A DNA stretch of 21,858 nucleotides from a virus, in IMG/VR virus record IMGVR_UViG_3300030328_003898, positions 1 to 21,858 of that record. One strand, given 5' to 3'. The notes beneath the pieces were generated by a model. That model ran no database searches and was not told the DNA's origin. It saw nothing but the letters and a program-made list of their open reading frames with translations. Positions 978-14,735 of the stretch are shown piece by piece. The stretch's first letter is position 1. Each line of letters opens with the position of its first letter. Made by a program: the position numbers and the translations under genes.

Positions 978-978
978 T

Positions 979-1218: not shown

Positions 1219-1219
1219 A

Positions 1220-1447
1220 TTAGTTACCCCCTTCTATGATTTGAATTACTTCTCCTTCAAACGGATTCTCAATTTTCTCATCTCTGCCTTTTCCAGTAGC
1301 CAAGTTAAAGTTACAAAGAAGCCAAACAATTCCAGCAACAGTATAACCTTGCTTTGCATATTTGATTATCTTTGATGCAATTACCTTATCGGTTTTATCC
1401 ATAATCTCATCCGTCATTTCTCTCAGTTCTGTTAATGTTATCTCCAT
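1220..1447 (-). CDS. small hypothetical protein, possible membrane-associated helix
   Basis: 75 aa from MEITLTELREMTDE. This ATG lies 1 nt after the upstream stop and behind AGGAGAGTGAATAA; the longer frame would extend into the preceding gene. Residues about 35-53 (GYTVAGIVWLLCNFNLATG) are hydrophobic enough for an amphipathic or single membrane helix, flanked by charged segments. No family recognised. Confidence 0.7.
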   Translation of the reverse strand: MEITLTELREMTDEIMDKTDKVIASKIIKYAKQGYTVAGIVWLLCNFNLATGKGRDEKIENPFEGEVIQIIEGGN

Positions 1448-1448
1448 T

Positions 1449-1640: not shown

Positions 1641-1641
1641 T

Positions 1642-1845
1642 TCAACACCACCTCTTTGATTCATAATATCTATCAGCACATTCTTCTTCTGAAAGTTCTT
1701 CTTTCCATACTGCTATTCCCTTTAGATTTGAGTTTTCAATTTTCAACTCATAGTTGATTATCTGTAATCTTTTTAGTTGTTCCATCAATCGACCTTTTTC
1801 TAAAATCAAATCCCCAATCCATTTTCTTAATTCTTCTTCATTCAT
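1642..1845 (-). CDS. small coiled-coil protein
   Basis: 67 aa from MNEEELRKWIGDLI. The start ATG follows the ArdC stop by 1 nt, with GGAGGATGAGTAA as ribosome site. Residues about 13-45 show leucine/isoleucine heptad spacing (LILEKGRLMEQLKRLQIINY), indicating a dimeric coiled coil. The acidic C-terminal part ends KRWC. Being directly downstream of an ArdC-like gene, it could be a partner of that protein, but this is context only. Confidence 0.72.
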   Translation of the reverse strand: MNEEELRKWIGDLILEKGRLMEQLKRLQIINYELKIENSNLKGIAVWKEELSEEECADRYYESKRWC

Positions 1846-1846
1846 T

Positions 1847-2863: not shown

Positions 2864-3050
2864 GGTGTTCGCCCCCTTTGTTATTTAATGATTCTCGGCC
2901 TTGCTTATAAACTTTCCGTTCTGCTAAAAGTGTGTCGTTTTCTATTTTCTCAATCAATCTCCTTCTTGATTCTGATTTCAAACCACAACCGGATAATCGA
3001 TGCTTATTTCCTTGACTATCTACATAAACCCACAAATTCTCTAATTTCAT
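2856..3050 (-). CDS. small protein of the MKLEN...SQG.KHRL family, with DTLLAERK tail
   Basis: 64 aa. The first 40 residues (LWVYVDSQGNKHRL, then SRRRLIEKIEN) closely match the protein encoded at 3324-3581, so the two are paralogues; this copy lacks the central insert. Residues from about 39 are the shared DTLLAERKVYKQGRESLN tail, which contains promoter-like module C for ardC. The start follows AAGGAGGAATATTAGA, the end of the 28-aa gene upstream. Function unknown; a tiny beta-hairpin domain is suggested by the alternating aromatic/polar pattern. Confidence 0.78.
   Translation of the reverse strand: MKLENLWVYVDSQGNKHRLSGCGLKSESRRRLIEKIENDTLLAERKVYKQGRESLNNKGGEHHE
2905..2936 (-). promoter_or_regulatory. 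in-gene promoter-like module, copy C (DTLLAERK)
   Basis: Minus strand GACACACTTTTAGCAGAACGG, then AAAGTTTATAAG, a good BRE/TATA-like box. After it, GAGAATCATTAAATAAC lies where a transcription start would fall. The ardC ATG is about 45 nt beyond the TATA. Best copy of the four. Confidence 0.6.
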
Positions 3051-3051
3051 T

Positions 3052-3138
3052 CTAATATTCCTCCTTCAAAATTTCAACATATAGTTTGTAGTTTTCAATC
3101 CTAGTCTCTAAGTGTTTAATGTAATCTTGTGTATTCAT
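3052..3138 (-). CDS. 28-residue helical micropeptide
   Basis: MNTQDYIKHLETRIENYKLY then VEILKEEY. An ATG with a GGAGGG ribosome site 6 nt upstream opens a 28-codon frame that exactly fills the gap between two genes. Its own end (AAGGAGGAATATTAG) provides the next ribosome site. Strongly amphipathic, consistent with a short coiled-coil helix. Called from spacing and ribosome site only. Confidence 0.6.
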   Translation of the reverse strand: MNTQDYIKHLETRIENYKLYVEILKEEY

Positions 3139-3327
3139 TCAAAACCCTCCGTAATGTTTTAACATACATTTAGTACAAAATCCTTTTGTTTTATCCATTC
3201 TGCTATCATGCTTTCTCCAAAAAATGTTGGGAATTTCAAAACCATTAGAATCAACACCATGAATAAAAGGTTGTTCTTCTTTACAAATTCGACAAACATA
3301 CGTTGTGGGCCAGTTGATTTCTTTCAT
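3139..3327 (-). CDS. small zinc-ribbon-like protein
   Basis: 62 aa from MKEINWPTTYVCRICKEEQP. The ATG overlaps the upstream stop (ATGA) after AAGGAGGTATGTAG; the 30-codon extension upstream lies within the previous gene. Two cysteine pairs, CRIC at about 12-15 and CTKC near 53-56, are separated by about 37 residues, as in a small treble-clef/zinc-ribbon fold. Role unknown. Confidence 0.72.
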   Translation of the reverse strand: MKEINWPTTYVCRICKEEQPFIHGVDSNGFEIPNIFWRKHDSRMDKTKGFCTKCMLKHYGGF

Positions 3328-3581
3328 TCTACATACCTCCTTTCGATTTTCTGAATCAATCTCTTTCTTGAGTCTGATATTTCTAAGTCTGCACCATTCC
3401 AGCCGAAACCAATCCAACCTTTACTCAGTTCTCCATAAGAAACCCACATTGTATATCCACCGGACATTCCATCAGAATACCAACCTCTATTTTCTAGTCG
3501 ATGCCTCTTTCCTTGACTGTCTGTATAAATCCACAGATTTCCCTTTCCATAGTTATTCTTTCCTGCATTTTCTAATTTCAT
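3324..3581 (-). CDS. hypothetical protein, paralogue of the 2856-3050 product
   Basis: 85 aa from MKLENAGKNNYGKGNLWIY. The start is 1 nt past the upstream stop and behind GGAGGTTGAGTAA. LWIYTDSQGKRHRL and SDSRKRLIQKIE align with LWVYVDSQGNKHRL and SESRRRLIEKIE of the smaller paralogue. The extra 30-residue Gly/Trp-rich insert (about 36-62) may be ancestral or acquired. It lacks the DTLLAERK tail. Confidence 0.76.
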   Translation of the reverse strand: MKLENAGKNNYGKGNLWIYTDSQGKRHRLENRGWYSDGMSGGYTMWVSYGELSKGWIGFGWNGADLEISDSRKRLIQKIERRYVE

Positions 3582-3582
3582 T

Positions 3583-3810
3583 TTACTCAACCTCCAAAAA
3601 TTCTACTTGTGCTACTGCATTTGAACATCTAACTTTCGGGCATACATATTCTTTGATTTTTACCCACCCTAAAACATGATGTTCAAAGGGAATAGATGAA
3701 CTACCCAATTCCATAAAAGTAATATTTTGGATTGAAGTCATTCCTATTGTTTTACCTTGAATATCTTCATCATAAAGATAACTAGAACATTTCATACAAA
3801 TCATACTCAT
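3583..3810 (-). CDS. small cysteine-pair protein
   Basis: 75 aa. CMKC at about 5-8 and CPKVRC at about 57-62 could bind one zinc ion. The region between contains hydrophobic strands (TIGMTSIQNITFMEL). Start ATG after GGAGGTGCTTGA, overlapping the previous stop region. No family recognised. Confidence 0.72.
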   Translation of the reverse strand: MSMICMKCSSYLYDEDIQGKTIGMTSIQNITFMELGSSSIPFEHHVLGWVKIKEYVCPKVRCSNAVAQVEFLEVE

Positions 3811-4068
3811 TCAAGCACCTCCTTCAATCATTTGTTGCTGATTCATGATACCCAAAATAGCACCCATTACAAGTTGTGGGTCGTCGCGCCATTCTTCCCA
3901 ATCCCAATAACCGGATTCAATCTTACCATCAATAACTAATCTAAGGTAAGAGCAATCTTCGGGATAGGCAGGGCAAACCAAAGACATTCTATCGCTTATT
4001 CTTATTGAACATTCTTTGTCCTTTACAATAGGAATAATCTCATCTTTATATCCAGCGTAGTCTCTCAT
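3811..4068 (-). CDS. hypothetical protein
   Basis: 85 aa (MRDYAGYKDEIIPIVKDKE...). Acidic, with a Trp-rich segment (SGYWDWEEWRDDPQLVMGAI) resembling the DDPQLV/DDPLLLVSG stretch of the product at 5143-5571; this short similarity may be a shared helix or chance. Starts after GGAGAGGTGTTTGA and ends EGGA, whose codons form the next ribosome site. Confidence 0.7.
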   Translation of the reverse strand: MRDYAGYKDEIIPIVKDKECSIRISDRMSLVCPAYPEDCSYLRLVIDGKIESGYWDWEEWRDDPQLVMGAILGIMNQQQMIEGGA

Positions 4069-4302
4069 TCAAACACCTCTCCATACTCGATTTTTTAATA
4101 TTAAATATGTGGACTTTCTTAGTTGGTCAAACGCTTCAATCAACATATCAGTCGCATAATCCATAGCATAGTCATAGCCTTCTTCATCTATCACATCATC
4201 AAGGAAATTATATTGCTCAATAATTTTTTCACAAGTTTCCCAGTTGTTTCTGAAATTCCATTCGCCAATCTCAATAGCCAAATCAATCCATCTTTCTTTC
4301 AT
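4069..4302 (-). CDS. small hypothetical helical protein
   Basis: 77 aa (MKERWIDLAIEIGEWNFRNN...). Predicted helical and acidic in the middle (FLDDVIDEEGYDYAMDYATD), with a basic end (KNRVWRGV). The start overlaps the 40-aa gene upstream as TGAATG behind GGAGGTGC. No motif identified. Confidence 0.7.
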   Translation of the reverse strand: MKERWIDLAIEIGEWNFRNNWETCEKIIEQYNFLDDVIDEEGYDYAMDYATDMLIEAFDQLRKSTYLILKNRVWRGV

Positions 4303-4425
4303 TCAAGCACCTCCGTTACAGATTGAGCAGTTCATTGATTTGGGGCATGGCCCATAAACTGCTACACTGATGTTGTGCAATTCTATGTTCATTCTTAATC
4401 CGGTCTTGGTTTTTAGTACGGTCAT
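4303..4425 (-). CDS. 40-residue cysteine-containing small protein
   Basis: MTVLKTKTGLRMNIELHNIS, then VAVYGPCPKSMNCSICNGGA. The start has AAGGAGTGAGAG upstream, and the frame ends exactly at the next gene's start (TGAATG). Three cysteines (CPKSMNCSIC) resemble half a zinc knuckle. It is the first gene after promoter-like module D, which supports it as a real gene. Confidence 0.62.
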   Translation of the reverse strand: MTVLKTKTGLRMNIELHNISVAVYGPCPKSMNCSICNGGA

Positions 4426-4430
4426 GTCTC

Positions 4431-4682
4431 TCACTCCTTCCTATTTATTGATTCTCCCTCAAGTATAAAAACCTTTCGTTCTGCTAAAAGTGTGTCTTTT
4501 TCTACTATATCTTGAGCAGTAGCATGAGTCCAACAAACCAATCTCAAAGCCTGTTGAGCATTGACGTTTCCTTTTCTCGCCATCTTAGCCAAACTTTCGA
4601 TTTGGGATTTCCTTTCTCTCATATCTTTATCCAACCAAATCGGGTCGGTACAAACTTGAACATAGAATAATGGTTGATTCAT
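4431..4682 (-). CDS. hypothetical protein with DTLLAERK C-terminal module
   Basis: 83 aa from MNQPLFYVQVCTDP. The ATG overlaps the upstream stop (ATGA) after GGGGTGATAGA. Residues about 20-60 are helical and basic (DMRERKSQIESLAKMARKG, then NVNAQQALRLVCW). The tail VEKDTLLAERKVFILEGESI is copy D of the shared module and contains the TATA-like box for the next gene. Confidence 0.74.
   Translation of the reverse strand: MNQPLFYVQVCTDPIWLDKDMRERKSQIESLAKMARKGNVNAQQALRLVCWTHATAQDIVEKDTLLAERKVFILEGESINRKE
4464..4496 (-). promoter_or_regulatory. in-gene promoter-like module, copy D (DTLLAERK)
   Basis: Minus strand GACACACTTTTAGCAGAACG, AAAGGTTTTTATACTTG (TATA-like), then GAGAATCAATAAATAGG at exactly the spacing of copies A and C. 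The 40-aa gene starts about 45 nt beyond the AT box. Confidence 0.58.
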
Positions 4683-5146
4683 TCTATCACCCCACAAGAA
4701 CCGCAAATCACTTCTCTCGGACCTCTCTTTGGAATTATCTTTGAGATATGAGTTATGTTTGATGGGTTGATTCCATTTGCTCTACATTTTCGACATTGTA
4801 ATCTTCCGATTCTATGATTAATCGGAACTTCAACCGCTTCCCACATATCTTCAATTAATTTGGCTAACTTATTCCGAGTTTTAGTGGCCTTCCTTTTTTG
4901 ATTTACCTTACGTCTAAATTCTTTGCCCGATAATGGGTCTTTGAATTTCTTCTCAAGTGCTTTCCGAGCAGGAACAGTATTTCTGCCGGTAGGATTTCCA
5001 GTTGCTTTACCTCGATTTTCAGGAATTTTATGCGGGAAACATTTTCGACATAATTGATAATTCCGAGAACTATCAGCCAATTTATAGCATTGAGTTCGCT
5101 TCTTACAACCTTTGCATTTTCTTGAACCGATTCTAATTATATTCAT
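4679..5146 (-). CDS. basic protein with two pairs of zinc-binding motifs
   Basis: 155 aa, strongly basic. An N-terminal module has CKGCKKRTQC (about 11-20) and CRKC (about 33-36). A long Lys/Arg-rich linker (about 45-105) is followed by a C-terminal module with CRKCRANG (about 118) and CGSCG (about 148). Two zinc ribbons joined by a basic linker suggest nucleic-acid binding, for example a transcription or replication accessory factor or a structure-specific nuclease; no catalytic signature is seen. It overlaps both neighbours by 4 nt, so translation is probably coupled. Confidence 0.75.
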   Translation of the reverse strand: MNIIRIGSRKCKGCKKRTQCYKLADSSRNYQLCRKCFPHKIPENRGKATGNPTGRNTVPARKALEKKFKDPLSGKEFRRKVNQKRKATKTRNKLAKLIEDMWEAVEVPINHRIGRLQCRKCRANGINPSNITHISKIIPKRGPREVICGSCGVIE

Positions 5147-5571
5147 TCTATCACCTCATTTGGATATAAATATCCTCTACTTCTATGAAGATTACAACAA
5201 CCACTTCTACACCAAAGAGGTGTTTTATTCAAATCCTGTTTCAACCAAAAACAATGAGTCAATTCATACATCAATAAATTATCACTAATCCATTCAGAAA
5301 TTTCTTCATCAATACCTCGGAAATACATACTCATATTAACCCATTCTTCAAAAGAATCTCCGGTTTGTTTCCATCTCAAATAACTTGTAGCCAAACCACT
5401 TACTAGTAAAAGTGGGTCATCACCATGATTTAGTGTTTGTCTCCAATCATAAGAATTGAAATTTCGCATCGTTTCCATAACTTCACTGAAATCATCAGTA
5501 TCTATTTTTTCAAGAATAACTGATGTATCAGTTTGATAACTTGGGATTGGTAAAGTTCTTGTTATATTCAT
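5143..5571 (-). CDS. hypothetical protein
   Basis: 142 aa (MNITRTLPIPSYQTDTS...). Acidic helical core with DDPLLLVSGLATSYLRWKQT (about 51-70), GIDEEISEWISDNLL and a C-terminal CRSGCCNLHRSRGY cluster that could hold a metal. Its ATG overlaps the stop of the 17-aa peptide gene as TAATG. No family recognised. Confidence 0.74.
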   Translation of the reverse strand: MNITRTLPIPSYQTDTSVILEKIDTDDFSEVMETMRNFNSYDWRQTLNHGDDPLLLVSGLATSYLRWKQTGDSFEEWVNMSMYFRGIDEEISEWISDNLLMYELTHCFWLKQDLNKTPLWCRSGCCNLHRSRGYLYPNEVIE

Positions 5572-5624
5572 TATTCATGCCCCCATATACCAATAAGAAT
5601 AAGGAAAATTACAATTTCAATCAT
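5571..5624 (-). CDS. 17-residue hydrophobic micropeptide
   Basis: MIEIVIFLILIGIWGHE. The frame starts directly after the stop of the upstream gene (TAAATG), has GAGGATGGG 10-11 nt upstream, and ends TAATG on the next start. It fits the gap exactly and continues the pattern of coupled junctions. Twelve consecutive apolar residues would form a membrane helix. Too short to be sure by composition alone. Confidence 0.5.
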   Translation of the reverse strand: MIEIVIFLILIGIWGHE

Positions 5625-5846
5625 TTAGAACCCATCCTCATAATAAGCACTCTGCACTGAATCATCATTTTGCATATCAGTATATATTTTAATAAAGAAG
5701 TTTTCATGTTTCCACCATTGTTCTGAAAACCTATCAAAGGATATTTCTTCATTGAAATCTACTGCTGAAAGTGCATCCCTAAGAGATTCAGTAAAAGCAT
5801 GGACAACTTCTGATGAAACCATTCTATTCACCCATAGATACATCAT
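5625..5846 (-). CDS. hypothetical protein
   Basis: 73 aa (MMYLWVNRMVSSEVV...). Predicted helical and acidic with FDRFSEQWWKHENFFIKIY in the middle. Starts directly after the upstream stop behind GGAGGTGGATGAATAA. An internal ATG (MVSSEVV, residue 9) is an alternative start with a poorer ribosome site. No motif found. Confidence 0.7.
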   Translation of the reverse strand: MMYLWVNRMVSSEVVHAFTESLRDALSAVDFNEEISFDRFSEQWWKHENFFIKIYTDMQNDDSVQSAYYEDGF

Positions 5847-6155
5847 TTATTCATCCACCTCCATTATCATTGAGTTTTTAATTTCATAAATTTTATCCAA
5901 TACCTCATCTAATTGAGTTGTGCTATTTCTAAGATACTGTAAATTATAGACCAAATCATACAATTCATTCAACATTTTCTTTTGAGATATTATTTGCTCC
6001 TTTGTTGGATTTAGAATAATTCGACTATCAACTTCATCTTCTGAATACCATTCACAAATAGAACAATATGCAATCCAATCACCACCAATAGCACCTTCAT
6101 TCATTGGTCGATGGTTTATTCGCTCGCCACAATCTTCGCAAATTCCCATATACAT
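5847..6155 (-). CDS. zinc-ribbon protein with helical C-terminus
   Basis: 102 aa. CEDC at about 6-9 and CSIC at about 31-34 form a compact zinc ribbon (spacing 21), followed from about 45 by a long helical segment (ISQKKMLNELYDLVYNLQYL) that may be a coiled coil. Domain order suggests a small DNA/RNA- or protein-binding adaptor. Starts just after the stop of the 6156-6362 gene (TAAATG). Confidence 0.76.
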   Translation of the reverse strand: MYMGICEDCGERINHRPMNEGAIGGDWIAYCSICEWYSEDEVDSRIILNPTKEQIISQKKMLNELYDLVYNLQYLRNSTTQLDEVLDKIYEIKNSMIMEVDE

Positions 6156-6362
6156 TTATGCCCACCTCACTTTAGTTCCAATCGTGTTTGTGATTAACAG
6201 GCCACCATTTGCCTCAATCAAAACCACCGGTCCTTTTCGGGTTCTTGTTGGTCTTACTACCATTGGGTCAAGTCCAAGTCTTCGGGCTATTTTCGCCATA
6301 TCCTCAGACCAACCACTAGGTAGTTCTTCGTTCATTTCATCGTTCATAATTTCAGTTCGCAT
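6156..6362 (-). CDS. first gene of the left operon, hypothetical
   Basis: 68 aa from MRTEIMNDEMNEELPSGWSE. The start used has GGGAGGCG 7 nt upstream. An in-frame ATG at 6377 (giving MGGER...) contains that ribosome site and lies near the predicted transcription start, so a leaderless longer form is possible. The C-terminal half (GPVVLIEANGGLLITNTIGT) looks like a small beta domain; residues 20-35 are helical. Function unknown; as promoter-proximal gene it would be made first and most. Confidence 0.72.
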   Translation of the reverse strand: MRTEIMNDEMNEELPSGWSEDMAKIARRLGLDPMVVRPTRTRKGPVVLIEANGGLLITNTIGTKVRWA

Positions 6363-6414
6363 TCGCTCGCCTCCCATAATTAATACTAGATACTATCTAG
6401 TATATAGACTTTGT
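6363..6414 (-). promoter_or_regulatory. TATA promoter of the left operon
   Basis: Minus strand AAAGTCTATATACTAG (TATATA at 6401-6406), then TTATGGGAGG 29 nt downstream of its first T. It matches the cassette promoters further right. An inverted pair CTAGATA/TATCTAG between TATA and start could be an operator. Confidence 0.75.
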
Positions 6415-6585
6415 GTTTACCTGATTTGAGCGATTTTGACCATTTCATACTTAAAATGTTACTTTTGGGGCATATTTTTGTAACAAAGGAGCAGTTCATC
6501 TCGTTTTTGATTCCTATGATTTGGTAGTTTCCAAGAGTAAAAAGTAACAAATTTTACTATCAGATTGTTAATTATTTGTGTTGGT

Positions 6586-6608
6586 ATAATAACATTCGAT
6601 GTTATTAT
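6586..6608. repeat. 10-bp-arm inverted repeat
   Basis: ATAATAACAT, spacer TCG, ATGTTATTAT: a perfect palindromic site or hairpin. A second hairpin (GTCTGA...TCAGAC) follows at 6612-6633. Could be a replication-initiator or repressor site. Confidence 0.75.
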
Positions 6609-6661
6609 TTTGTCTGAAAACGTACCATCAGACCTAAGCGAAAGCAGATTTTTCGACTCGA

Positions 6662-6685
6662 TTTTTGTACCACACGGGACAAAAA
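6662..6685. repeat. GTACC/GGGAC inverted repeat, copy 1
   Basis: TTTTTGTACC, loop ACAC, GGGACAAAAA. One A/G mismatch interrupts the arms. The same mismatch is present in the second copy at 6967-6994. Confidence 0.7.
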
Positions 6686-6739
6686 TTCGGGACAAAAATT
6701 TTGAATGTTATTTTTTAGCCCATTTTAATAACCTATTTT

Positions 6740-6842
6740 TTTTGTCCCATTTTATTTTTCTATGGTTTTTCTTAACAATTTTTTTTTGTCCCATGTTAAG
6801 AATTTCTATGAAAAAATAACAAATTTTTTTTTGTCCCATGTT
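6740..6842. repeat. 44-45 bp tandem direct repeats
   Basis: TTTTTTTGTCCCAT starts recur with the GTCCC word at 6744, 6788 and 6833 (spacings 44 and 45 bp). Copies two and three share TTTTTTTGTCCCATGTTAAG. The intervening TTTCTATG words are also shared. Iteron-like arrangement. Confidence 0.7.
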
Positions 6843-6861
6843 AAGAAAAAAGTGTAAAATA

Positions 6862-6879
6862 TAACATTTCAAAATGTTA
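6862..6879. repeat. 8-bp-arm inverted repeat
   Basis: TAACATTT, spacer CA, AAATGTTA. Perfect palindrome, related in sequence to the TAACAT/ATGTTA arms at 6586-6608. Confidence 0.75.
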
Positions 6880-6966
6880 CATTTTGGCTGCAAAAACTAA
6901 CAAATTAAAAAGTTATTTTTTATTAACGAAAAGTATCTTTTTTCTCCAATATCGACTGGTCGGCAG

Positions 6967-6994
6967 TTTTTTTGTACCGCGTGGGACAAAAAAA
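6967..6994. repeat. GTACC/GGGAC inverted repeat, copy 2
   Basis: TTTTTTTGTACC, loop GCGT, GGGACAAAAAAA. Eleven of twelve arm positions pair; same central mismatch as copy 1. Confidence 0.72.
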
Positions 6995-7156
6995 ACGGGG
7001 AGCAGTATCACTTTTTGTCCCAAAAAAAAGTCGTCATGCTCGACCCCTAGATAGGGAGAAGTACACTTTCATTTTCGGTTTTTTTCGTTAGACTGGTCGC
7101 CATTTTTTTTGTCCCGACCAAAAACGCCAAAAATAACCTATGGCGTAAATCGCATC

Positions 7157-7202
7157 GGGTCCGACCTCCAAGTATATTTACTAACTAGTATATAACCTTT
7201 TA
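7157..7202 (-). promoter_or_regulatory. TATA plus palindrome unit 1, no gene behind it
   Basis: Minus strand AAAGGTTATATACT (TATATA 7189-7194), then AATATACTTGGA and the palindrome GGTCGGACC beginning 28 nt after the first T of TATATA. No ribosome site or sizeable frame follows. Reads as a regulated promoter for a small RNA or as an initiator site. Confidence 0.6.
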
Positions 7203-7220
7203 TTTTTGTCCCCCCTTAAA

Positions 7221-7232
7221 ACTTTATATACC
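7221..7232 (+). promoter_or_regulatory. plus-strand TATA box
   Basis: AAAACTTTATATACCGG (TTTATATA 7223-7230) is a strong archaeal-type box on the plus strand, opposite in direction to nearly everything around it. No gene follows on the plus strand, so any transcript would be noncoding or antisense to the units at 7273-7367. Confidence 0.4.
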
Positions 7233-7272
7233 GGCAGCCCCAAAAAAAAATAACTAGGGCTAAAAAATTATC

Positions 7273-7317
7273 GGGTCCGACCCCTAAGTACATTGAGATG
7301 GGGGTATATAATACTTC
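7273..7317 (-). promoter_or_regulatory. TATA plus palindrome unit 2, no gene behind it
   Basis: Minus strand GGAAGTATTATATACCCCC (TATATA 7305-7310), then AATGTACTTAGG and GGTCGGACC at exactly the same 28-nt spacing as unit 1. The downstream T-run (7255-7267) and the T-rich stretch at 7240-7250 could terminate a transcript of under 60 nt. Confidence 0.6.
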
Positions 7318-7330
7318 CGATTGGCCCCCC

Positions 7331-7370
7331 CGTACCCCATACTAGATGGGCAGGGGGTATATAATACTTT
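7331..7370 (-). promoter_or_regulatory. TATA unit 3, partly matching units 1 and 2
   Basis: Minus strand CCAAAAGTATTATATACCCCC (TATATA 7358-7363), followed by GGGGTACGGGGG near where the palindrome lies in unit 2. The 5' part, including the preceding G7CC run, is nearly identical to unit 2, indicating duplication. Confidence 0.55.
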
Positions 7371-7377
7371 TGGCCCC

Positions 7378-7566
7378 CCCTTTTTGTCCCTATTTTTTGT
7401 CCTATGTTTTTTTGTTTTTGTTCCTAGTTTTTGTTTTTTCTTTTTGTCCCTTTTTCTTTTTGTCCTCTTTGTTTTTTGTTCTTTTCTTTTGTCTTTCTTT
7501 TTTGTCTGTTTTCTTTTTTTGTTCAGTCTTTTTGTCCTAGTAATTTTTTGGTAAAGATTTTTGTCC
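7378..7566. repeat. (T)nGTCC spacer array 1
   Basis: About 190 bp of T-runs each closed by GTCC, GTC or GTTC at roughly 9-15 bp intervals. It lies between a terminator (7571-7610) and TATA unit 3. It contains long open frames on the plus strand, but these encode only Phe/Leu/Cys/Val low complexity and are not genes. Confidence 0.8.
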
Positions 7567-7570
7567 CGGC

Positions 7571-7610
7571 AAAAAAATAAATAAAAAAAGGAGGATTAAT
7601 CATCACCTCC
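7571..7610 (-). terminator. cassette terminator, hairpin plus U-tract
   Basis: Stem AAAAAGGAGG/CCTCCTTTTT around the stop of the 7596-7778 gene, followed on the minus strand by TTTTTTTATTTATTTTTTT. The same tail recurs after five other cassettes. Confidence 0.8.
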
Positions 7611-7778
7611 TTTTTCCACTTTTACTTCTTCGCCACAATCTTCGCATATATCGCCGACCTCATAACACGTATCACAACATTCAGCAAAGTCGTTACAGTA
7701 ACAGTCGCCAGCGATATAACATTTTCCGCATTCATGAGTGAATGCGTTCAATTCTCTTATATGTTCCCATGATTTCAT
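7596..7778 (-). CDS. cysteine-rich zinc-binding small protein
   Basis: 60 aa with nine cysteines in pairs: CGKC (about 17-20), CYC (26-28), CCDTC (34-38) and CEDC (45-48). The spacing suggests two zinc sites, as in small zinc-ribbon or LIM-like modules. It overlaps the upstream gene by ATGA and is last in its three-gene cassette; its stop sits inside the terminator hairpin. Probable protein- or nucleic-acid-binding adaptor; function unknown. Confidence 0.78.
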   Translation of the reverse strand: MKSWEHIRELNAFTHECGKCYIAGDCYCNDFAECCDTCYEVGDICEDCGEEVKVEKGGDD

Positions 7779-8161
7779 GCTAATCCCTCCATAGTATCAA
7801 CACCCCAGTTCCTATTTACCCAAAACGCTGCTGCGTCTGCTGATTGCATGGGACTCTCATCCACTACTGGAAGACCCATTTGCTGCTCTACTGTATCGTA
7901 TAACATAGTCATGATACCCCATCTTCTATAATATTCACGGGTCCATACAGTTCGCGGAACTAATCTATCCTCACGCACAATAAATTGAGCATTAGCATAT
8001 TGAAATGGCTCTGAATCTCCATATGCTGTTAGGTCTTGGAAGAATCCTATATCGACATACTTAGGGGTGTCCGATGTAACATTCATATTCTCATCCAATT
8101 TTAACATGTTGAGAAAGCAATCCTCCGCATCGCCATAGTAAGGGAAGTCGGGCTTCAACAT
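7775..8161 (-). CDS. hypothetical protein
   Basis: 128 aa (MLKPDFPYYGDAEDC...). Mixed alpha/beta character with aromatic-rich segments (FQDLTAYGDSEPFQYANAQF; REYYRRWGIMTMLYD). Starts as TAATG on the stop of the upstream gene with GGGGGTGATGAA as ribosome site. Middle gene of a three-gene cassette. Family not recognised. Confidence 0.76.
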   Translation of the reverse strand: MLKPDFPYYGDAEDCFLNMLKLDENMNVTSDTPKYVDIGFFQDLTAYGDSEPFQYANAQFIVREDRLVPRTVWTREYYRRWGIMTMLYDTVEQQMGLPVVDESPMQSADAAAFWVNRNWGVDTMEGLA

Positions 8162-8652
8162 TATTCATCACCCCCGTTAAGCACGTTGCTCCATGAGATG
8201 TATTTGGTTGTGATAATGTCCTTATCTTTAATCTCAACGAAATTGATTAGGTCAAAGATTGCATCTTGACCCCTTTCGATAGCCTTCTCAATTGCGTGTG
8301 CTAGGTCATATACAACCTCAACCACATCAAAAACCAAATCATTCTTATCAACCCACGCACCTAAATATATATTAGTTCGCGGTTTCATAGATTCTTGAAC
8401 CTTGATAATATGGTTCTTAAATCCGATGATGATTTGATGAAGGATTTCATCATCAATATCATAATGGTTTGGAATTCTCAAGTCATCTCCTACAAACATA
8501 GCGACAGCGTAAGCCTCGCTATATCTTGAAAATGAAGTTGAATAAATTTCATTTTCTGAAACTTCAAGAGTACACCCGTCATTGAGAAAAATTTCCTCAA
8601 GAACTTGGGGGGCGGTCATAGGTCGGTCGGTTGCGGTCGAGTGTTCTTCCAT
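8161..8652 (-). CDS. hypothetical protein, first gene of cassette 1
   Basis: 163 aa. Acidic; helices near 12-25 and 75-92 (DDEILHQIIIGFKNHIIKVQ) and 115-135 (VVEVVYDLAHAIEKAIERG). The start ATG lies 27 nt after the first T of the TATA box core, so the mRNA is probably leaderless or nearly so; no good ribosome site precedes it. It ends NGGDE, whose codons form the next gene's ribosome site. No motif recognised. Confidence 0.77.
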   Translation of the reverse strand: MEEHSTATDRPMTAPQVLEEIFLNDGCTLEVSENEIYSTSFSRYSEAYAVAMFVGDDLRIPNHYDIDDEILHQIIIGFKNHIIKVQESMKPRTNIYLGAWVDKNDLVFDVVEVVYDLAHAIEKAIERGQDAIFDLINFVEIKDKDIITTKYISWSNVLNGGDE

Positions 8653-8690
8653 GTCCTACCCTATACTCGGAAGTACATAAACCTTTGGTT
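8653..8690 (-). promoter_or_regulatory. TATA promoter of cassette 1
   Basis: Minus strand CAAAGGTTTATGTACTTCC (TTTATGTA 8674-8681). The spacer GAGTATAGGGTAGGAC leads to ATG at 8652. Confidence 0.75.
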
Positions 8691-8737
8691 GATGATAATG
8701 TTTATATGCTTTCGTTTCTTAGTCATTTTATGTAGGG

Positions 8738-8853
8738 TTTTTGTCTTTCTTTTTTGTCTTTCTTTTTTGTCTTTCTTTTTTGTCTAATTTTTTTGTTTCT
8801 TTTTTTTGTCTTTCTTTTTTGTCCTCAAAACTTTTGTCTCATATTTTTGTCTC
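8738..8853. repeat. (T)nGTC spacer array 2, with perfect 13-bp tandem units
   Basis: TTTTTTGTCTTTC repeats head to tail three to four times near 8739-8785, then diverges. This is the most regular of the six arrays and shows the unit clearly. Confidence 0.85.
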
Positions 8854-8907
8854 AAAAAAAAATAAATAAAAAAGGTGGAAGAGGGCCGAAGGACATGGCC
8901 CCCTTCC
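8854..8907 (-). terminator. cassette terminator, 11-bp hairpin plus U-tract
   Basis: Arms 8877-8887 and 8897-8907 (GGAAGRGGGCC pairing, one G-U), then on the minus strand ACCTTTTTTATTTATTTTTTTTT. Follows the 8982-9290 gene. Confidence 0.85.
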
Positions 8908-8912
8908 GTGGG

Positions 8913-8941
8913 GTGGGTCCGGGTTTCGCCCCCCGGACCAC
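8913..8941 (-). ncRNA. conserved 3'-UTR hairpin, copy 1
   Basis: GGTCCGGG/CCCGGACC stem with outer GTG/CAC pairs, between gene end and terminator. Copy 2 at 10338-10366 has GGTTTGGG/CCCAAACC: two pairs changed from C-G to T-A on both arms. This compensation argues for a structure kept in the RNA (or as a DNA cruciform). Confidence 0.65.
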
Positions 8942-8981
8942 AGGGCAGGTCAAGACTGGTGTTTGTTGACGAAGAATGAAC

Positions 8982-9290
8982 TTAATCCACTTTTAGTGTG
9001 TCCCATCCTTGATAGGAGTACATCTTGTGGTGTTCGCCATAAAGCATATCCAAGATGCGGCCTTTCAACTGCATAGCGGAAAAGTTGTAGTTCACTACTA
9101 AGTTCAGTAGTTCTCTTTCAACGCTGCTTCCATGTCCGCGATTCTCAACACGTTGCATCATCTCAAGTGCTGGCTCGTAGGAATGTAAATACCTAGAGAC
9201 TCTAATGATGTCTATCCACGTTGGTAGCGGTTTTGGTTCGCCTGATGCCTCGTCATCAGGCTGTTCGTTCATTTCGTCATGTGTGTCCAT
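8982..9290 (-). CDS. hypothetical protein, single-gene cassette 2
   Basis: 102 aa from MDTHDEMNEQPDDEASGEPK, an acidic disordered start. The rest is helical (WIDIIRVSRYLHSYEPALEM; VERELLNLVVNYNFSAMQL). GGGAGGG lies 10 nt upstream of this ATG. An in-frame ATG at 9308 (MGGQPN) includes that site and lies 28 nt after the TATA core, so a leaderless longer form is possible. Ends WDTLKVD. Function unknown. Confidence 0.75.
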   Translation of the reverse strand: MDTHDEMNEQPDDEASGEPKPLPTWIDIIRVSRYLHSYEPALEMMQRVENRGHGSSVERELLNLVVNYNFSAMQLKGRILDMLYGEHHKMYSYQGWDTLKVD

Positions 9291-9345
9291 GTTCGGTTGC
9301 CCTCCCATATTCCAAATTATGCACAACAAGTACATAAACATTTGG
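9291..9345 (-). promoter_or_regulatory. TATA promoter of cassette 2
   Basis: Minus strand CAAATGTTTATGTACTTG (TTTATGTA 9331-9338), then ATATGGGAGGG, with the ATG 28 nt from the first T of TATGTA. Confidence 0.75.
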
Positions 9346-9349
9346 TTGT

Positions 9350-9512
9350 TAATTTTTGTCCTTTTTTTATATTTTTGTCCGTTATTTTTCACCTATTTTT
9401 TGTTTCATTTTTTTGTTCTCTGTTTTTGTCTTTGTTTTTTGTTCTCTATTTTTGTTCTTTCTTTTTGTTCTCTATTTTTGTCCCCAAAGATTTTGTCTAA
9501 AATTTTTGTCCT
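9350..9512. repeat. (T)nGTCC spacer array 3
   Basis: T-runs punctuated by GTCC, GTC and GTTC every 9-15 bp, between the cassette 2 promoter and the cassette 3 terminator. Plus-strand frames across it are low complexity. Confidence 0.8.
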
Positions 9513-9552
9513 AAAAAATAAATAAAAAAAAGGGTGGGCCGAAGCCCGACCC
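9513..9552 (-). terminator. cassette terminator with UUCG tetraloop
   Basis: Minus strand GGGTCGGGC UUCG GCCC ACCC with one bulged C, then TTTTTTTTATTTATTTTTTAGG. C(UUCG)G is an exceptionally stable RNA loop. Confidence 0.85.
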
Positions 9553-9554
9553 GA

Positions 9555-9620
9555 TTAACCCATATTCCCACCCCCACACTTCGCGTATTGAAACCCGCCG
9601 GTTCGTTCATTGAGATTCAT
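9555..9620 (-). CDS. possible 21-residue glycine-rich peptide
   Basis: MNLNERTGGFQYAKCGGGNM then G. The ATG has GGAGTG 8 nt upstream, and the stop falls just before the terminator hairpin. It follows the coiled-coil gene within 25 nt, so it would be in the same transcript. Composition does not settle whether it is translated. Confidence 0.38.
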   Translation of the reverse strand: MNLNERTGGFQYAKCGGGNMG

Positions 9621-9642
9621 TTCAAACACTCCTTGATTACCC

Positions 9643-10086
9643 TTACTTCAAACTCCAGCCGAATTCGGTAGATACATTGGCGGCGTTATCAGCGTTGCTT
9701 TGTAGCATAGTGCGGATAGCATCGGTCAATACATCTACTTGGCGGCGTAGGTCATCTACTTCGCATTGAAGGCTAGCAGTGTCGGCTATATTACTAACAT
9801 CATCTTGTAATGCTTCGATGTCGTTAGTCAAGTCGCCTTCAAGTTCACTTACTGTGTCCCTCAAGTCTTCGATTTCACCTTTGAGGTCGTTGATGTGTCC
9901 TCCAACTTCCTCTACCTTGTGGTGTGCCTTCTCGATGTCTAGGGTGACTTCCTGTCTAATGCTTTGGGCATCTAGGCTGTCTCTTAGACTAAAGGCAATA
10001 TCGTTGACTATCATGCGTAATCCTCGATTTAGGGTTTCTTCCGCCTCGTCGGAAAAAGGGCGTTCATCTGTGGTGTTCATATCCAT
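9643..10086 (-). CDS. long coiled-coil protein
   Basis: 147 aa (MDMNTTDERPFSDEAEETLN...). Residues about 45-125 show continuous heptads (VEEVGGHINDLKGEIEDLRD; EGDLTNDIEALQDDVSNIAD; VDDLRRQVDVLTDAIRTML), predicting an extended dimeric or trimeric coiled coil. The ATG at 10086 has GGAGG 9 nt upstream; ATG at 10080 is an alternative. It could be a structural spacer, a fibre-like component or an inhibitor acting by oligomerisation; context (accessory cassettes) gives no preference. Confidence 0.8.
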   Translation of the reverse strand: MDMNTTDERPFSDEAEETLNRGLRMIVNDIAFSLRDSLDAQSIRQEVTLDIEKAHHKVEEVGGHINDLKGEIEDLRDTVSELEGDLTNDIEALQDDVSNIADTASLQCEVDDLRRQVDVLTDAIRTMLQSNADNAANVSTEFGWSLK

Positions 10087-10142
10087 GCAGGTGTTTCCTC
10101 CATGTTACTAGCAGGGCTAGGCAGTATATAATACTTTTCATG
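10087..10142 (-). promoter_or_regulatory. TATA promoter of cassette 3
   Basis: Minus strand GAAAAGTATTATATACTGCC (TATATA core within 10125-10132), then ACATGGAGG 27 nt downstream. Here the ATG overlapping the ribosome site is out of frame with the gene. Confidence 0.78.
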
Positions 10143-10285
10143 TTAATTTTTGTCTCGTTTTTTTATTTTTGTCTGTTATTTTTTTTGTTATTTTTGTTTC
10201 TTTTTTTTGTCTTTGTTTTTTGTTCTTTCTTTTTGTCTGTTATTTTTTTGTTCGGGATTTTTGTCCTCAAAATTTTTGTCCTTCG
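10143..10285. repeat. (T)nGTC spacer array 4
   Basis: T-runs closed by GTC, GTT or GTCC at 9-16 bp steps between the cassette 3 promoter and the cassette 4 terminator. Confidence 0.8.
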
Positions 10286-10330
10286 CTATTGAAAATAAAA
10301 AAATGGAAGGGAGGCTGTGGATAGCCTCCC
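10286..10330 (-). terminator. cassette terminator, hairpin plus U-tract
   Basis: Arms GGGAGGCT (10309-10316) and AGCCTCCC (10323-10330), loop of six, then minus-strand TTTTTTTATTTTC. The tail is less regular than in other cassettes. Confidence 0.78.
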
Positions 10331-10337
10331 CTCCGGG

Positions 10338-10366
10338 GTGGGTTTGGGTTTCATCCCCCAAACCAC
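10338..10366 (-). ncRNA. conserved 3'-UTR hairpin, copy 2
   Basis: GTGGGTTTGGG/CCCAAACCAC stem. Aligned base for base with copy 1 (8913-8941), both arms differ by compensating changes at two pairs while the GGGTTTC part of the loop side is retained. Same position relative to gene end and terminator. Confidence 0.65.
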
Positions 10367-10404
10367 GGGATAGGACAATTCTGATGATTATAGAATTACT
10401 GTGC

Positions 10405-10764
10405 TTAGACTGGATATACGGTCAAGTTCCAATGGTTGCCCATCTCAAAGTAGTAACCGAAATCACTCAATAAGTTCCATAATTCGTTCCATAGAACTTC
10501 ATATGCTGGTACACACCAATGTTCTCGCATAACGTCGCATAAGCCGCCTTCAAAAGACATAGATACAAGTCTGTTATCTCCATACTTAAAATAATCTTCT
10601 GCTTCTATGCCTTCTATTATGCGCTTTTCGCCGTTGCTGTTATAGCAATAAGCGATTCCGTTGAAGTAAATTCTACTGTCTGTTAATAGACTGTTTTTCA
10701 TACCCCACCGTTCAATAGCGTTGGCTATGCGTTTATTCATTTTCGCGTCGTGTTGAATTTGCAT
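10405..10764 (-). CDS. hypothetical protein, single-gene cassette 4
   Basis: 119 aa from MQIQHDAKMNKRIANAIERW. GGGAGGTGA lies 10 nt upstream. An in-frame ATG at 10785 (MGGEND) overlaps that ribosome site and sits 28 nt after the TATA core. N-terminal helix, then a beta-rich part (SRIYFNGIAYCYNSNGEKRI) and a Trp-rich C-terminus (VLWNELWNLLSDFGYYFEMG). No family recognised. Confidence 0.76.
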   Translation of the reverse strand: MQIQHDAKMNKRIANAIERWGMKNSLLTDSRIYFNGIAYCYNSNGEKRIIEGIEAEDYFKYGDNRLVSMSFEGGLCDVMREHWCVPAYEVLWNELWNLLSDFGYYFEMGNHWNLTVYPV

Positions 10765-10822
10765 GTTGTCGTTTTCACCTCCCATATTATACCCTAGACA
10801 TAGGAAGTATATAGTCTTTTTT
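10765..10822 (-). promoter_or_regulatory. TATA promoter of cassette 4
   Basis: Minus strand AAAAAGACTATATACTTCC (core within 10806-10815), spacer with CTAGGGTATA, then ATATGGGAGG at 28 nt. Confidence 0.78.
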
Positions 10823-10824
10823 AT

Positions 10825-10938
10825 GTTATTTTTTGTCCTGTTTTTTTATTTTTGTTTCTGTTTTTTGTTCTTTATTTTTGTTTCTGTTTTTTGTTCTTTC
10901 TTTTTGTCCGTGAGTTTTTGTACTATATTTTTGTCCAC
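10825..10938. repeat. (T)nGTCC spacer array 5
   Basis: T-runs ending in GTCC, GTTTC or GTTC. Includes a 25-26 bp direct duplication (TTTTTATTTTTGTTTCTG type) near 10845-10890. Confidence 0.78.
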
Positions 10939-10976
10939 AAAAAAATAAAAATAAAAAAAAGGTGGGCATACGCCCT
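10939..10976 (-). terminator. cassette terminator, short hairpin plus U-tract
   Basis: GGGC, loop of four, GCCC (10964-10975), extended by outer AAAG/TTT pairing, then minus-strand ACCTTTTTTTTATTTTTATTTTTTT. Confidence 0.75.
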
Positions 10977-10982
10977 TTAACA

Positions 10983-11021
10983 TCACATAATAACCACCTC
11001 CGAATATTGATTGCGTTCCAT
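10983..11021 (-). CDS. possible 12-residue peptide
   Basis: MERNQYSEVVIM, with GGGTGAGG just upstream, 26 nt after the stop of the zinc-ribbon gene and just before the terminator. Very short; listed because another cassette also has a tiny frame with a ribosome site in the same position. Confidence 0.25.
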   Translation of the reverse strand: MERNQYSEVVIM

Positions 11022-11046
11022 AACCTCACCCTCTATTTGCTAATAA

Positions 11047-11196
11047 TTAGCAGATGATGTTTATTGTGTCTTTCATGTGTTTGCCGTGTGTATTGCTATG
11101 ACCGCATACATCGCACCATAAACACGCTTTACAGTGTTTGTGATGCCTTCGCGGAGTCAAAGCATTACCGCACATGTGGCAGAAATCCTTCTTCAT
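11047..11196 (-). CDS. 49-residue zinc-ribbon protein
   Basis: MKKDFCHMCGNALTPRRHHK, then HCKACLWCDVCGHSNTHGKH and nine more residues. Cysteines at 6/9, 22/25 and 28/31, with six histidines, give one classic zinc ribbon plus a third pair. The ATG has AGGAGG 7 nt upstream and follows a typical cassette TATA promoter, so I am confident it is expressed. Likely binds nucleic acid or a host protein. Confidence 0.78.
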   Translation of the reverse strand: MKKDFCHMCGNALTPRRHHKHCKACLWCDVCGHSNTHGKHMKDTINIIC

Positions 11197-11245
11197 CAAC
11201 AGTCCTCCTATACCCTACCCTAGTCATAGGCGGTATATAATACTT
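11197..11245 (-). promoter_or_regulatory. TATA promoter of cassette 5
   Basis: Minus strand AAAAAGTATTATATACCGCC (TATATA core within 11234-11241). At the 28-nt position it has ATAGGAGG instead of ATGGGAGG, so the overlapping ATG is absent here. Confidence 0.78.
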
Positions 11246-11342
11246 TTTATTTTTGTTTTTGTCCCTTTTTTGTTTTTTTGTTCTTTTTTTTGTTTTTGTT
11301 CTTTCTTTTTGTTCAGAACTTTTGTACTACATTTTTGTCCTG
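11246..11342. repeat. (T)nGTCC spacer array 6
   Basis: Shortest array, about 100 bp, T-runs with GTCC or GTTC. Lies between the cassette 5 promoter and the terminator of the 11485-13108 operon. Confidence 0.78.
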
Positions 11343-11347
11343 CGTAT

Positions 11348-11385
11348 AAAAAACACAAAAAAAATATGGGGGCCGAAGCCCCCAT
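11348..11385 (-). terminator. terminator with perfect UUCG hairpin
   Basis: ATGGGGGC UUCG GCCCCCAT on the minus strand (arms 11366-11373 and 11378-11385), then ATTTTTTTTGTGTTTTTT. Ends the four-gene operon 13108-11485. Confidence 0.88.
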
Positions 11386-11484
11386 GCGCCCGAAGACGAC
11401 TTTGGCTCTCATTGTATTCGTGGGTTTCAACTTCTTACTATCCTCCATTATTTCGGTCATTCAACTTTAACGATTAATCCTCGA

Positions 11485-11697
11485 TTATTCCTCTTGAGAA
11501 TATGGGCATTCGTCTAATTCAGTCGCTTCTGCTAAGATTGCTTCCCATTCATGGTAGCAGCAAAGAGGACAACAAACAGATTTTAGAATTGAAGTATTAA
11601 TTTCGTATATTCGCGCATTTATTTCAGCACAATTACACTCATAAACTCCATAAAATTCGTTCATCAATTCATTTACTTTAGCGGTTAATGTAGTCAT
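11485..11697 (-). CDS. small cysteine-rich protein
   Basis: 70 aa. N-terminal helix, then CNC (about 21-23) and CCPLCCYH (about 42-49), with a further Cys near 64 (ECPYS). The CPLC-type knuckle suggests zinc binding. Start as TAATG on the upstream stop after GGGGGTGATGAG. Last gene of the 13108-11485 operon; about 100 nt of leader to the terminator follow without a convincing gene. Confidence 0.75.
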   Translation of the reverse strand: MTTLTAKVNELMNEFYGVYECNCAEINARIYEINTSILKSVCCPLCCYHEWEAILAEATELDECPYSQEE

Positions 11698-12235: not shown

Positions 12236-13108
12236 TTATTCATCACCTCCGCGAATCTCGGTGTGGGTGAGGCGGAAGGCCTCGGCGGTGATGAAGACCC
12301 AAATCGGTCGAGGTTCTTCAAACACTCCTTCGCAAAAGAATACGCCCCATCGCGCTCCTTCGTGGGTGTGTCCGTGTGCTTTGCCGCCTATGCTTTGGCG
12401 GTATGCTGCCCCTGCCTTAACTCGGCTGCCGCCCTTCTTCAAGAATTCAACGCGGTGGGGTGCGATTTCGACTTGAGGTCCGTTATACTTGTTGACCACA
12501 TAAGCGACTAGGTGTTGGCCGTTCTGTGTGTGGTTGGTGGTGGTTGGTACAAGCATTTCCTCATCTGATGCGTCACTGCCGCACTTGTTGCACGTATTCT
12601 TATTGATTGGGATGGTAGTTCGGCTTCCGTCTTGATTGCAGCACGATTCATTAGAGCAAAGAAGACGGGATTCAGGCCATAGACCGGCATCGAGGTTTCG
12701 GGTATAGACTCCTTGACGGCCTCTTGAATTCATGTCTGAAAGGTTCCTCTTGTGCATTGGTGGCCTTCGTACTGTTCGGGTGTCGTTATCCTCTCCGAAT
12801 GGTTGAGTCATGAAAGCGGAGTAATGAACTTGAGATGCTGAAACTAGGTTCACCCAACTGATATGTACATTCTTCAATTGATTTCGTGCGGTTCTGATTG
12901 TGTCTCTACCAGTGGTTAAGTTTAGACCTCTAGCAACTTCCTTGATAGTCTTAGTTCTAAGGAGTTTTTCTTGACGTTCTGAAAGTCTCTCTATGACTGT
13001 TATATCATCAACTAGGTAGTCTATGGTATCATCCAAATTGTAATTTTCTTCACCCCCTAAATTAACGGCGTTCTTCATCATGTGTATAATGTCTGCTATT
13101 CCTCGCAT
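12236..13108 (-). CDS. putative DNA-binding regulator with HTH-like and zinc-finger segments
   Basis: 290 aa, family not recognised. Residues about 50-80 (KTIKEVARGLNLTTGRDTIR) resemble a helix-turn-helix. Residues 151-177 hold a zinc-finger pattern C-x4-CC-x15-CNKC. The C-terminal 100 residues are beta-rich (HLVAYVVNKYNGPQVEIAPH; RWGVFFCEGVFEEPRPIWVF). Its 3' half is noticeably richer in G+C than neighbouring genes, a possible sign of separate origin. First gene of a four-gene operon; start ATG is about 28 nt after the AT box, with GAGG directly following, so probably leaderless. Regulator of the accessory block is a guess from the domains. Confidence 0.72.
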   Translation of the reverse strand: MRGIADIIHMMKNAVNLGGEENYNLDDTIDYLVDDITVIERLSERQEKLLRTKTIKEVARGLNLTTGRDTIRTARNQLKNVHISWVNLVSASQVHYSAFMTQPFGEDNDTRTVRRPPMHKRNLSDMNSRGRQGVYTRNLDAGLWPESRLLCSNESCCNQDGSRTTIPINKNTCNKCGSDASDEEMLVPTTTNHTQNGQHLVAYVVNKYNGPQVEIAPHRVEFLKKGGSRVKAGAAYRQSIGGKAHGHTHEGARWGVFFCEGVFEEPRPIWVFITAEAFRLTHTEIRGGDE

Positions 13109-13149: not shown

Positions 13150-13215
13150 AAAATCGCAATAATCGGCGATTTACCTAATGCTAGGCGGCACTCAAAATTT
13201 TTTACAAAATTTTTG
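13150..13215 (-). terminator. possible terminator of the packaging operon
   Basis: AAATCGC/GCGATTT hairpin (13151-13172) and short A/T runs (AAAATTTT words at 13192-13215) follow the terminase stop. The run of T is much shorter than in the cassette terminators. Confidence 0.35.
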
Positions 13216-13226
13216 AAACCAAGTAT

Positions 13227-14735
13227 TTATACTCTACGTCTTCTTGTAACGCCACCTATGCCGGTGGAGCCTTTACGCGATATAGTATTTCTTTTATCGC
13301 CGCCAATCCACTCGCCGCCGGACAAACTGCCCATCGCAACCGCCACGTTTCCCTGCGGAATCTGTAACTGGTCAACTGCGTGTGCAAACGCCATAGCCGC
13401 GTCGTTATGCTTACCTAAGTCCACGATAATTCCATCGCGCCAAGCATGAGTTTCTAACTCTTGAAATAAAATATTCACTGTACTACGAGTAGCATCGTCA
13501 CCATATGGGAAAATTAACTTCTCACGCTCAAACCAAACGCGCAATCTGTTCATTAGACCTTGTTTTAATGTGCGATTACTAACCCGGCTTTTACGATAGT
13601 CCACCAAAGCACCTTTTTGAGCCAGCAAACTTTCATACATTTGTTGAAAGCCCACATCTTCTGCTGCTAGTGGTGCATTACCATAGCGTTTAATCATTTC
13701 AATTAGAACATCAGCCTGTCTGTCGGGTGGAAAATCATTACGTCGCCACATATTTACAAAGTGGACAAAGCCATCGCTATCCTGTCGGACAACCACAATT
13801 ACAGAATAGTCTTTTCCTAGACCTTGTGCGGGGTCAAACCCAATAACATATCGAGATTCGTGTATCTTTTCAACCTCAAGTATTCCACTCATATTCAAGT
13901 TCTTACGCACAAGCATACGAGGATATACTGCTGCCTCATCGTCAACAACCCGACATAGATATTCCTGTATGAAAGATAACTCTCCCATAGCCTGTTTTTG
14001 TTCTAGTAAGAAATCAATCGGCCTGTATTCCGGCCACAATTCTTGTACCGGATTACCTTCCGGGTCTTCTTTCCATTCATCCCAATTAGTAATTGCAGAC
14101 CAAGTGCCGGATTTCCATGCGTCATTTTCTAACATCTCCGTATGGTACAAATCATTCATACTCATCGGCGTACCGACCACATAGATGCTAGTACCCGGAC
14201 TTAGCATCGGTGTAACCTTTTTACGAAACCATTCACGGGTAACACCCGGATTTAAGTCGCCCATATCGTCTAGTACGTCATCAAAAGCAATAGCCGCAGG
14301 ATGTTCACCACGAATAGCGGACCCAACACTGGTTGCGCGAATCCATGCGCCGTTAGTAAATCGAAGTTCTAACTTATTACCCCTGCGTGGGTCAAGATAC
14401 CTACTAAGTTCGGGATGTCTTTTCATATCTTCTCGGATTTCTTCAAGACGACGAACTGCTAAGTCTTTACTCGCAGAAAACAACCAAATGGTAAAGGGTT
14501 TATTGCGCCATCTTTCAAAAAGGCACTGATGCAATAACTTCACACGGAGAGTAGTAGATTTACTATGGTCCCGTGGTGCGATAATACAAACTCGATGAAC
14601 TTGTGCGCCTTCTCTTTTACCGTACATTTCCATCCACTCGCCAATGTGACCACCCCAAGTATAGCCCAACCACCGATAGAAGTATTCAATATCGCCCTTA
14701 CTACGAGCCATAGCGAAAGCAGAATTACGAGCCAC
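13227..14735 (-). CDS. terL: terminase large subunit (TerL)
   Basis: 502 aa, the usual length. ATPase domain: Walker-A-like APRDHSKST (53-61, replacing the standard GKS/T loop, as in many viral TerL), Walker B AIAFDDVLDD (148-157), coupling motif VVGTP (186-190). Nuclease domain: IGFDPAQGLGKDYS with D301, AAEDVGFQQ (E359/D360) and KHNDAAMAF (D445) as the RNase-H-like acidic set. It powers genome packaging into proheads and cuts the concatemer. GTG start behind GAGGTGAT; transcribed after three zinc-ribbon genes and the HTH-phosphoesterase. The Walker A residues are identical in type to TerL of marine tailed viruses, but I cannot assign a packaging strategy from sequence alone. Confidence 0.95.
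   Translation of the reverse strand: MARNSAFAMARSKGDIEYFYRWLGYTWGGHIGEWMEMYGKREGAQVHRVCIIAPRDHSKSTTLRVKLLHQCLFERWRNKPFTIWLFSASKDLAVRRLEEIREDMKRHPELSRYLDPRRGNKLELRFTNGAWIRATSVGSAIRGEHPAAIAFDDVLDDMGDLNPGVTREWFRKKVTPMLSPGTSIYVVGTPMSMNDLYHTEMLENDAWKSGTWSAITNWDEWKEDPEGNPVQELWPEYRPIDFLLEQKQAMGELSFIQEYLCRVVDDEAAVYPRMLVRKNLNMSGILEVEKIHESRYVIGFDPAQGLGKDYSVIVVVRQDSDGFVHFVNMWRRNDFPPDRQADVLIEMIKRYGNAPLAAEDVGFQQMYESLLAQKGALVDYRKSRVSNRTLKQGLMNRLRVWFEREKLIFPYGDDATRSTVNILFQELETHAWRDGIIVDLGKHNDAAMAFAHAVDQLQIPQGNVAVAMGSLSGGEWIGGDKRNTISRKGSTGIGGVTRRRRV

Follow-up and report, generated by a model that had tools for sequence, protein, structure and literature searches.

Why should a run of viral operons keep the same noncoding DNA when the genes inside them are unlike one another? 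The question is raised by the IMG/VR virus record IMGVR_UViG_3300030328_003898, positions 1-21,858, and we refer to this whole stretch of 21,858 bases as the window. It encodes a terminase, a portal and an ArdC-like antirestriction gene, and its source is probably a marine tailed virus of archaea. The ArdC-like protein (1847-2863; PF08401, PF18818) belongs to a run of ~20 small minus-strand genes at 21-6377, most of which have Shine-Dalgarno-like sites ahead of them. For the Magrovirales, which are viruses of Poseidoniales, a family B DNA polymerase, an archaeal-like DNA primase and a genome of 90-110 kb are described. A polymerase of this family was present in 7 of 21 records, relatives included. 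Matches to PF01896 and PF00705 were absent in nine records, and the largest contig, possibly an incomplete genome, is 72 kb. A host search among genome contigs found no relative.

The initial annotation had described six repeated units in which the intergenic DNA is alike and the genes are not, and both parts of this description held. All six units are present on the minus strand, at or near where they had been placed, with their intergenic regions within 7324-11484 and small, unrelated genes between these. The units share one order: a TATA box (TATTATATAC or TTTATGTAC), a GGAGG-type site, one to three genes, a GC hairpin, a U-tract (T6-8 and then an ATTTAT-like stretch), GGACAAAAAT, an array of the word G[GA]ACAAAAA and the next promoter. 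When the six intergenic regions were aligned pairwise, the local alignment scores exceeded those of dinucleotide-shuffled pairs by z = 11-26, a similarity beyond base composition. The arrays ahead of the promoters had also been recognised, but not their exact period: many word copies follow each other at exactly 13 nt (15, 19 and 26 were also seen), and three consecutive words at this spacing occur 16 times compared to 0 in 100 shuffles. The 8-mer GACAAAAA has 39 copies in the island, none of them inside a called gene. A simple scan for terminator-like sites gave 7 in the region 7300-11500 compared to 3.8 expected, and only three of those are the hairpins meant in the units, so that the terminators in the units rest on anatomy and not on statistics. 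A sigma-70 promoter scan gave 12 sites where 11.1 were expected, no more than chance.

The left border of the island is the terminase large subunit gene (13227-14735), which is on the minus strand like the parts of the units described next. For unit 1 the word array covers 11250-11340, upstream of a TATA box at ~11233-11242, and the gene (11047-11196) encodes a 49 aa, four-cysteine, zinc-ribbon-like protein with a weak Pfam zinc ribbon match. The terminator scan found the hairpin ATGGGGGCTTCGGCCCCCAT followed by ATTTTTTTTG at 11366-11385. Unit 2 has its array at 10829-10936, its TATA box at ~10808-10817 and a gene for 119 aa (10405-10764) that matches a family with no function assigned (phrog_35453). 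A hairpin with a T tail from the same scan (10305-10334) separates it from unit 3, where the array lies at 10147-10281, the TATA box at ~10124-10133 and the gene at 9643-10086. The 147 aa product of this gene is coiled-coil-like and has no function assigned; its family matches look like coiled-coil noise and were discarded. Between units 3 and 4 there is another such hairpin with a T tail (9536-9552, terminator scan). The array of unit 4 (9352-9511) precedes a TATA-like TTTATGTAC at ~9330-9339 and a gene for 102 aa (8982-9290), which has 43-45% identical relatives in L096 and L098, where the word is AATCCAAA. In unit 5 an array at 8738-8853 and a TATA-like TTTATGTAC at ~8673-8682 are followed by three genes: the first (8161-8652, 163 aa) belongs to cassette family c1, the second (7775-8161, 128 aa) has no function assigned and neither has the third (7596-7778, 60 aa), which is cysteine-rich. 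Unit 6 consists of an array at 7381-7566 with two TATA boxes downstream (~7358-7367 and ~7304-7313). It opens into ~1.2 kb without a called gene (6363-7595) before the next operon, and this stretch holds several more TATA boxes, along with dispersed GGACAAAAA words that point either way.

With the terminase as anchor we found 80 related loci, and in most of those reaching far enough an island of similar kind lies just downstream of the terminase. Every virus lineage has one word of its own in tens of copies, among them GGTTACAAAAAC, CGTTACAAAAC, ACCCTACAAAA, GCTACAAATTT, CCCTACGAAGT and others, and a common core near ACAAA is found in the words of all lineages. L020, for example, holds 69 copies of GGTTACA compared to 0.8 expected. 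Where contigs are longer, the words keep to a single zone, that of the island. They lie mostly outside genes, and in some relatives inside them. The conserved noncoding frame proposed initially is thus found within the window, whereas outside this virus only the layout is kept, with a different word and with island genes often on the strand opposite to the terminase. Loci without this type of word mostly form one group (L061-L076), plus a few others. In L070 (11250-15200) no ACAAA-type word was detected in the island spacers, where TATATA boxes stand densely alongside AGAGAG tracts; such tracts also occur in spacers of L020, L031, L088 and L093.

The orientation of the words is equally regular. 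In many relatives the island genes run opposite to the terminase, and even there (L020, L032, L093, L058, L088) the polarity of the word is that of the terminase strand. As polarity does not follow transcription, we disfavoured RNA elements and stoperators as explanations of the words. Antisense U-tract terminators were rejected as well, since neither strand of words such as CCCTACGAAGT and AATCCAAA offers a long run of T. Across the island and flanking genes of L093 (contig G017) the word stands in frame inside coding sequences, where it is translated as VTK if the gene is on the plus strand and as FCN or FVT if it is on the minus strand. In-gene copies in G017 number 25 compared to 6.2 expected from synonymous shuffles; this excess was not seen in the window or in G007.

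We then considered the distance between the TATA box and the nearest word, which is constant in 6 of 12 viruses tested (P 0.03 to <0.001): L058 (4/4, P<0.001), L093 (4/5, P=0.001), L051 (3/4, P=0.004), L020 (3/3, P=0.007), L088 (3/3, P=0.008) and L032 (3/6, P=0.03). For the window itself the result was not significant (3/6, P=0.26, with a fourth case by hand), nor was it for L052, L040, G007, L059 and L046. In L093, L097 and L058 a palindrome of two words sits at equal distance from the TATA box as a promoter site. Most relatives have the TATA box 27-31 nt ahead of the start codon, often without a Shine-Dalgarno sequence, as is typical of leaderless transcripts in archaea. The spacing, the promoter palindromes and the start-codon pattern together led us to take the word as a regulator site, possibly an operator or an upstream activating site of a virus-encoded regulator.

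The explanation that we hold to be somewhat probable is therefore a hypervariable accessory-gene island in which the virus-specific words would be the sites of one virus-encoded regulator controlling all cassettes. Each operon would be a self-contained cassette of promoter, genes and terminator, and the array upstream of its promoter would bind that regulator. The copy nearest to the promoter would act on TATA-dependent initiation and the further copies would load more of the protein, bringing every cassette of a virus under common control. Between lineages the regulator and the words would change together, and cassettes would be gained or lost via recombination between genes. Protein binding, the sign of the regulation, the identity of the reader and the functions of the genes we infer from sequence. 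The non-significant TATA spacing of the window and of the five other viruses counts against this explanation. So do the single polarity of the word relative to the terminase and the in-gene copies, neither of which a plain promoter operator requires.

The gene content of the islands is highly variable. In 29 loci, up to 9 kb downstream of the terminase, 294 called genes fall into 189 families with 139 singletons; this count includes flanking genes, and gene calling is imperfect in the AT-rich arrays. Content differs cassette by cassette between relatives, and what sets close relatives apart is entire cassettes. When the window is compared with G002 and G003, which have the same word, the spacers align at ~70-79%, whereas most of the intervening genes do not. 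Family c1 follows the word of the window as well as those of L020, L040/L052, L051 and L059, and its occurrence behind different words in different viruses speaks for a common regulator of exchangeable cassettes. Comparison with the relatives thus confirmed that gene content varies while the layout stays, but the literal intergenic sequence is not fixed, as other words are used.

These observations support an exchange of cassettes between viruses, for which the initial annotation had proposed homologous recombination in the conserved intergenic DNA of modular, insulated cassettes. Size-changing homology breakpoints indeed fall between genes in 58 of 65 cases compared to 32.6 expected, an excess that is softened because genes are better conserved and alignment ends therefore tend into the spacers. 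Arrays that are primarily recombination substrates, with shared repeats promoting exchange among same-word viruses and no regulator (as in PeSL-like spacers), would explain this excess, the gain and loss by cassette between close relatives and the spacer homology common to viruses with the same word. Within intergenic DNA, however, 32 breakpoints were observed near words compared to 32.3 expected. An unconditioned excess (33 compared to 21.7, P=0.002) had disappeared once we limited the analysis to intergenic positions. As the words attract no more breakpoints than the rest of the DNA between genes, they are probably not crossover sites. Recombination alone also leaves the constant TATA distance in several relatives and the in-gene copies unexplained, and we consider it unlikely as the primary role of the arrays. 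The cassette-like layout and its variable content stand; insulated expression and the mechanism of exchange are presumptive.

If the words are sites of a viral regulator, a protein reading them should be looked for nearby. In most word families a protein of 250-440 aa adjoins the island, usually with a zinc ribbon. In the window this is an orphan protein of 290 aa (12236-13108, minus strand) with a zinc ribbon at residues ~145-188, which we regard as the best candidate for the word-binding regulator. Domain searches of this protein revealed no helix-turn-helix and no other known DNA-binding domain, and in its AlphaFold2 model (mean pLDDT 41) the ribbon is the sole confidently modelled part. 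It is 35-41% identical to its counterparts in L024-L028, compared to 90-92% for the terminases. Candidate readers of different word types are unrelated by BLAST, and several are linked by profile comparison. The reader families of L034/L078/L079 and of L051 are without a clear CxxC pair, and L098 has the word and no counterpart of the 336 aa protein of L096; both count against the regulator explanation, as does a model that is confident in the ribbon alone. Autoregulation of the candidate reader was dropped, as only some of the families have words close to the reader's promoter.

Words and neighbouring proteins were exchanged jointly. The window is 91% identical in DNA to G001, the contig of L020, until 36 nt beyond the terminase stop; homology is then lost abruptly (13191-13227), as at a module-exchange junction, and beyond it there are short scattered matches only, with both the word and the neighbouring protein different. 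The terminase tree groups the window, and likewise L040, with viruses whose word is a different one. Such joint differences count for the regulator explanation. Word and candidate reader are found together in 35 loci, 13 loci have neither and 3 depart from this pattern, a co-occurrence that is confounded by the physical linkage of the two and by the origin of the word-less loci mostly from one clade. The co-variation would fit a pair of reader and word, and linkage or clade effects could produce it as well. The joint exchange and the confinement of the words to one viral island also argue against a host-encoded regulator or architectural protein as the binding factor, with words differing as hosts differ. 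That words are lineage-specific and that the candidate reader is without a recognised DNA-binding domain would suit such a host factor, which nevertheless seems rather improbable to us.

The polarity of the words bears on iterons or centromere-like sites in viral replication, packaging or segregation, for which proximity to promoters would be secondary. Tens of copies beside the terminase, the constant orientation relative to its strand even where the genes oppose it and the excess inside the coding sequences of G017 would all be expected of such sites. On the other hand, the constant TATA distance in several viruses, the promoter palindromes and the recurrence of the window arrays ahead of each operon would not, and we find this reading doubtful. 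A neutral expansion of tandem and dispersed functionless repeats is very improbable: tandem arrays rich in AT and of varying copy number would suit it, but the layout is the same with different words in strongly diverged viruses, the TATA distance is constant and in-gene copies exceed the synonymous-shuffle expectation.

The regulator explanation can be taken one step further, to a regulatory password. Tentatively, each lineage might possess a private word and its own fast-evolving zinc-ribbon reader, the word marking every operon of the island and both turning over and moving as one module. Were this true, the word would decide which cassettes a virus acquires and expresses, and a tailed virus would be seen keeping a pool of exchangeable genes under common control. 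Concerted evolution of a DNA-binding protein with dozens of its sites could also be measured here. In practice, viral contigs under one regulatory system could then be recognised by their common word, which would also mark the probable locations of host-interaction genes in these marine viruses.

Among known systems, T4-like phages have promoter early stem-loops (PeSLs), described as promoter-terminator spacers that recur around small variable genes, mostly of no known function, with gene exchange between relatives (Arbiol 2010, Comeau 2014, via PMC4503421, PMC3950731). The window spacers likewise combine a hairpin, a U-tract and a TATA promoter, are mutually alignable and surround variable genes, although the terminator statistics are weak. 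Unlike PeSLs as described there, they hold a word array between terminator and promoter, with a word that differs by lineage, and their promoters are of TATA type and not the bacterial sigma-70 type early promoter. In the haloarchaeal myovirus HGTV-1 a TATA box with an inverted-repeat motif stands before most left-side ORFs (Sencilo 2013, as summarised in PMC3950731). This resembles our repeated motif with TATA before many genes of one region, including the inverted repeat at the TATA box in L093, L097 and L058; the likeness is one of description, and the summary in PMC3950731 reports no virus-specific words or arrays for the HGTV-1 motif. The stoperators of cluster A mycobacteriophages are tens of asymmetric ~13 bp sites whose consensus varies between phages with the phage-encoded immunity repressor, and they are spread genome-wide and oriented with transcription (PMC6550527, PMC9283540). 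The words share with them an asymmetric, virus-specific site in tens of copies that diverges between viruses, but are packed in one island, are oriented with the terminase strand instead of transcription and have no helix-turn-helix repressor recognised in the candidate reader. That each lineage has its own island-confined word may be new here, and an earlier description of such words is possible. The architecture works like PeSLs and the HGTV-1 motif, and in its multiplicity, its virus-specific site and the divergence of this site it resembles stoperators, from which orientation and distribution set it apart. We place it in neither family.
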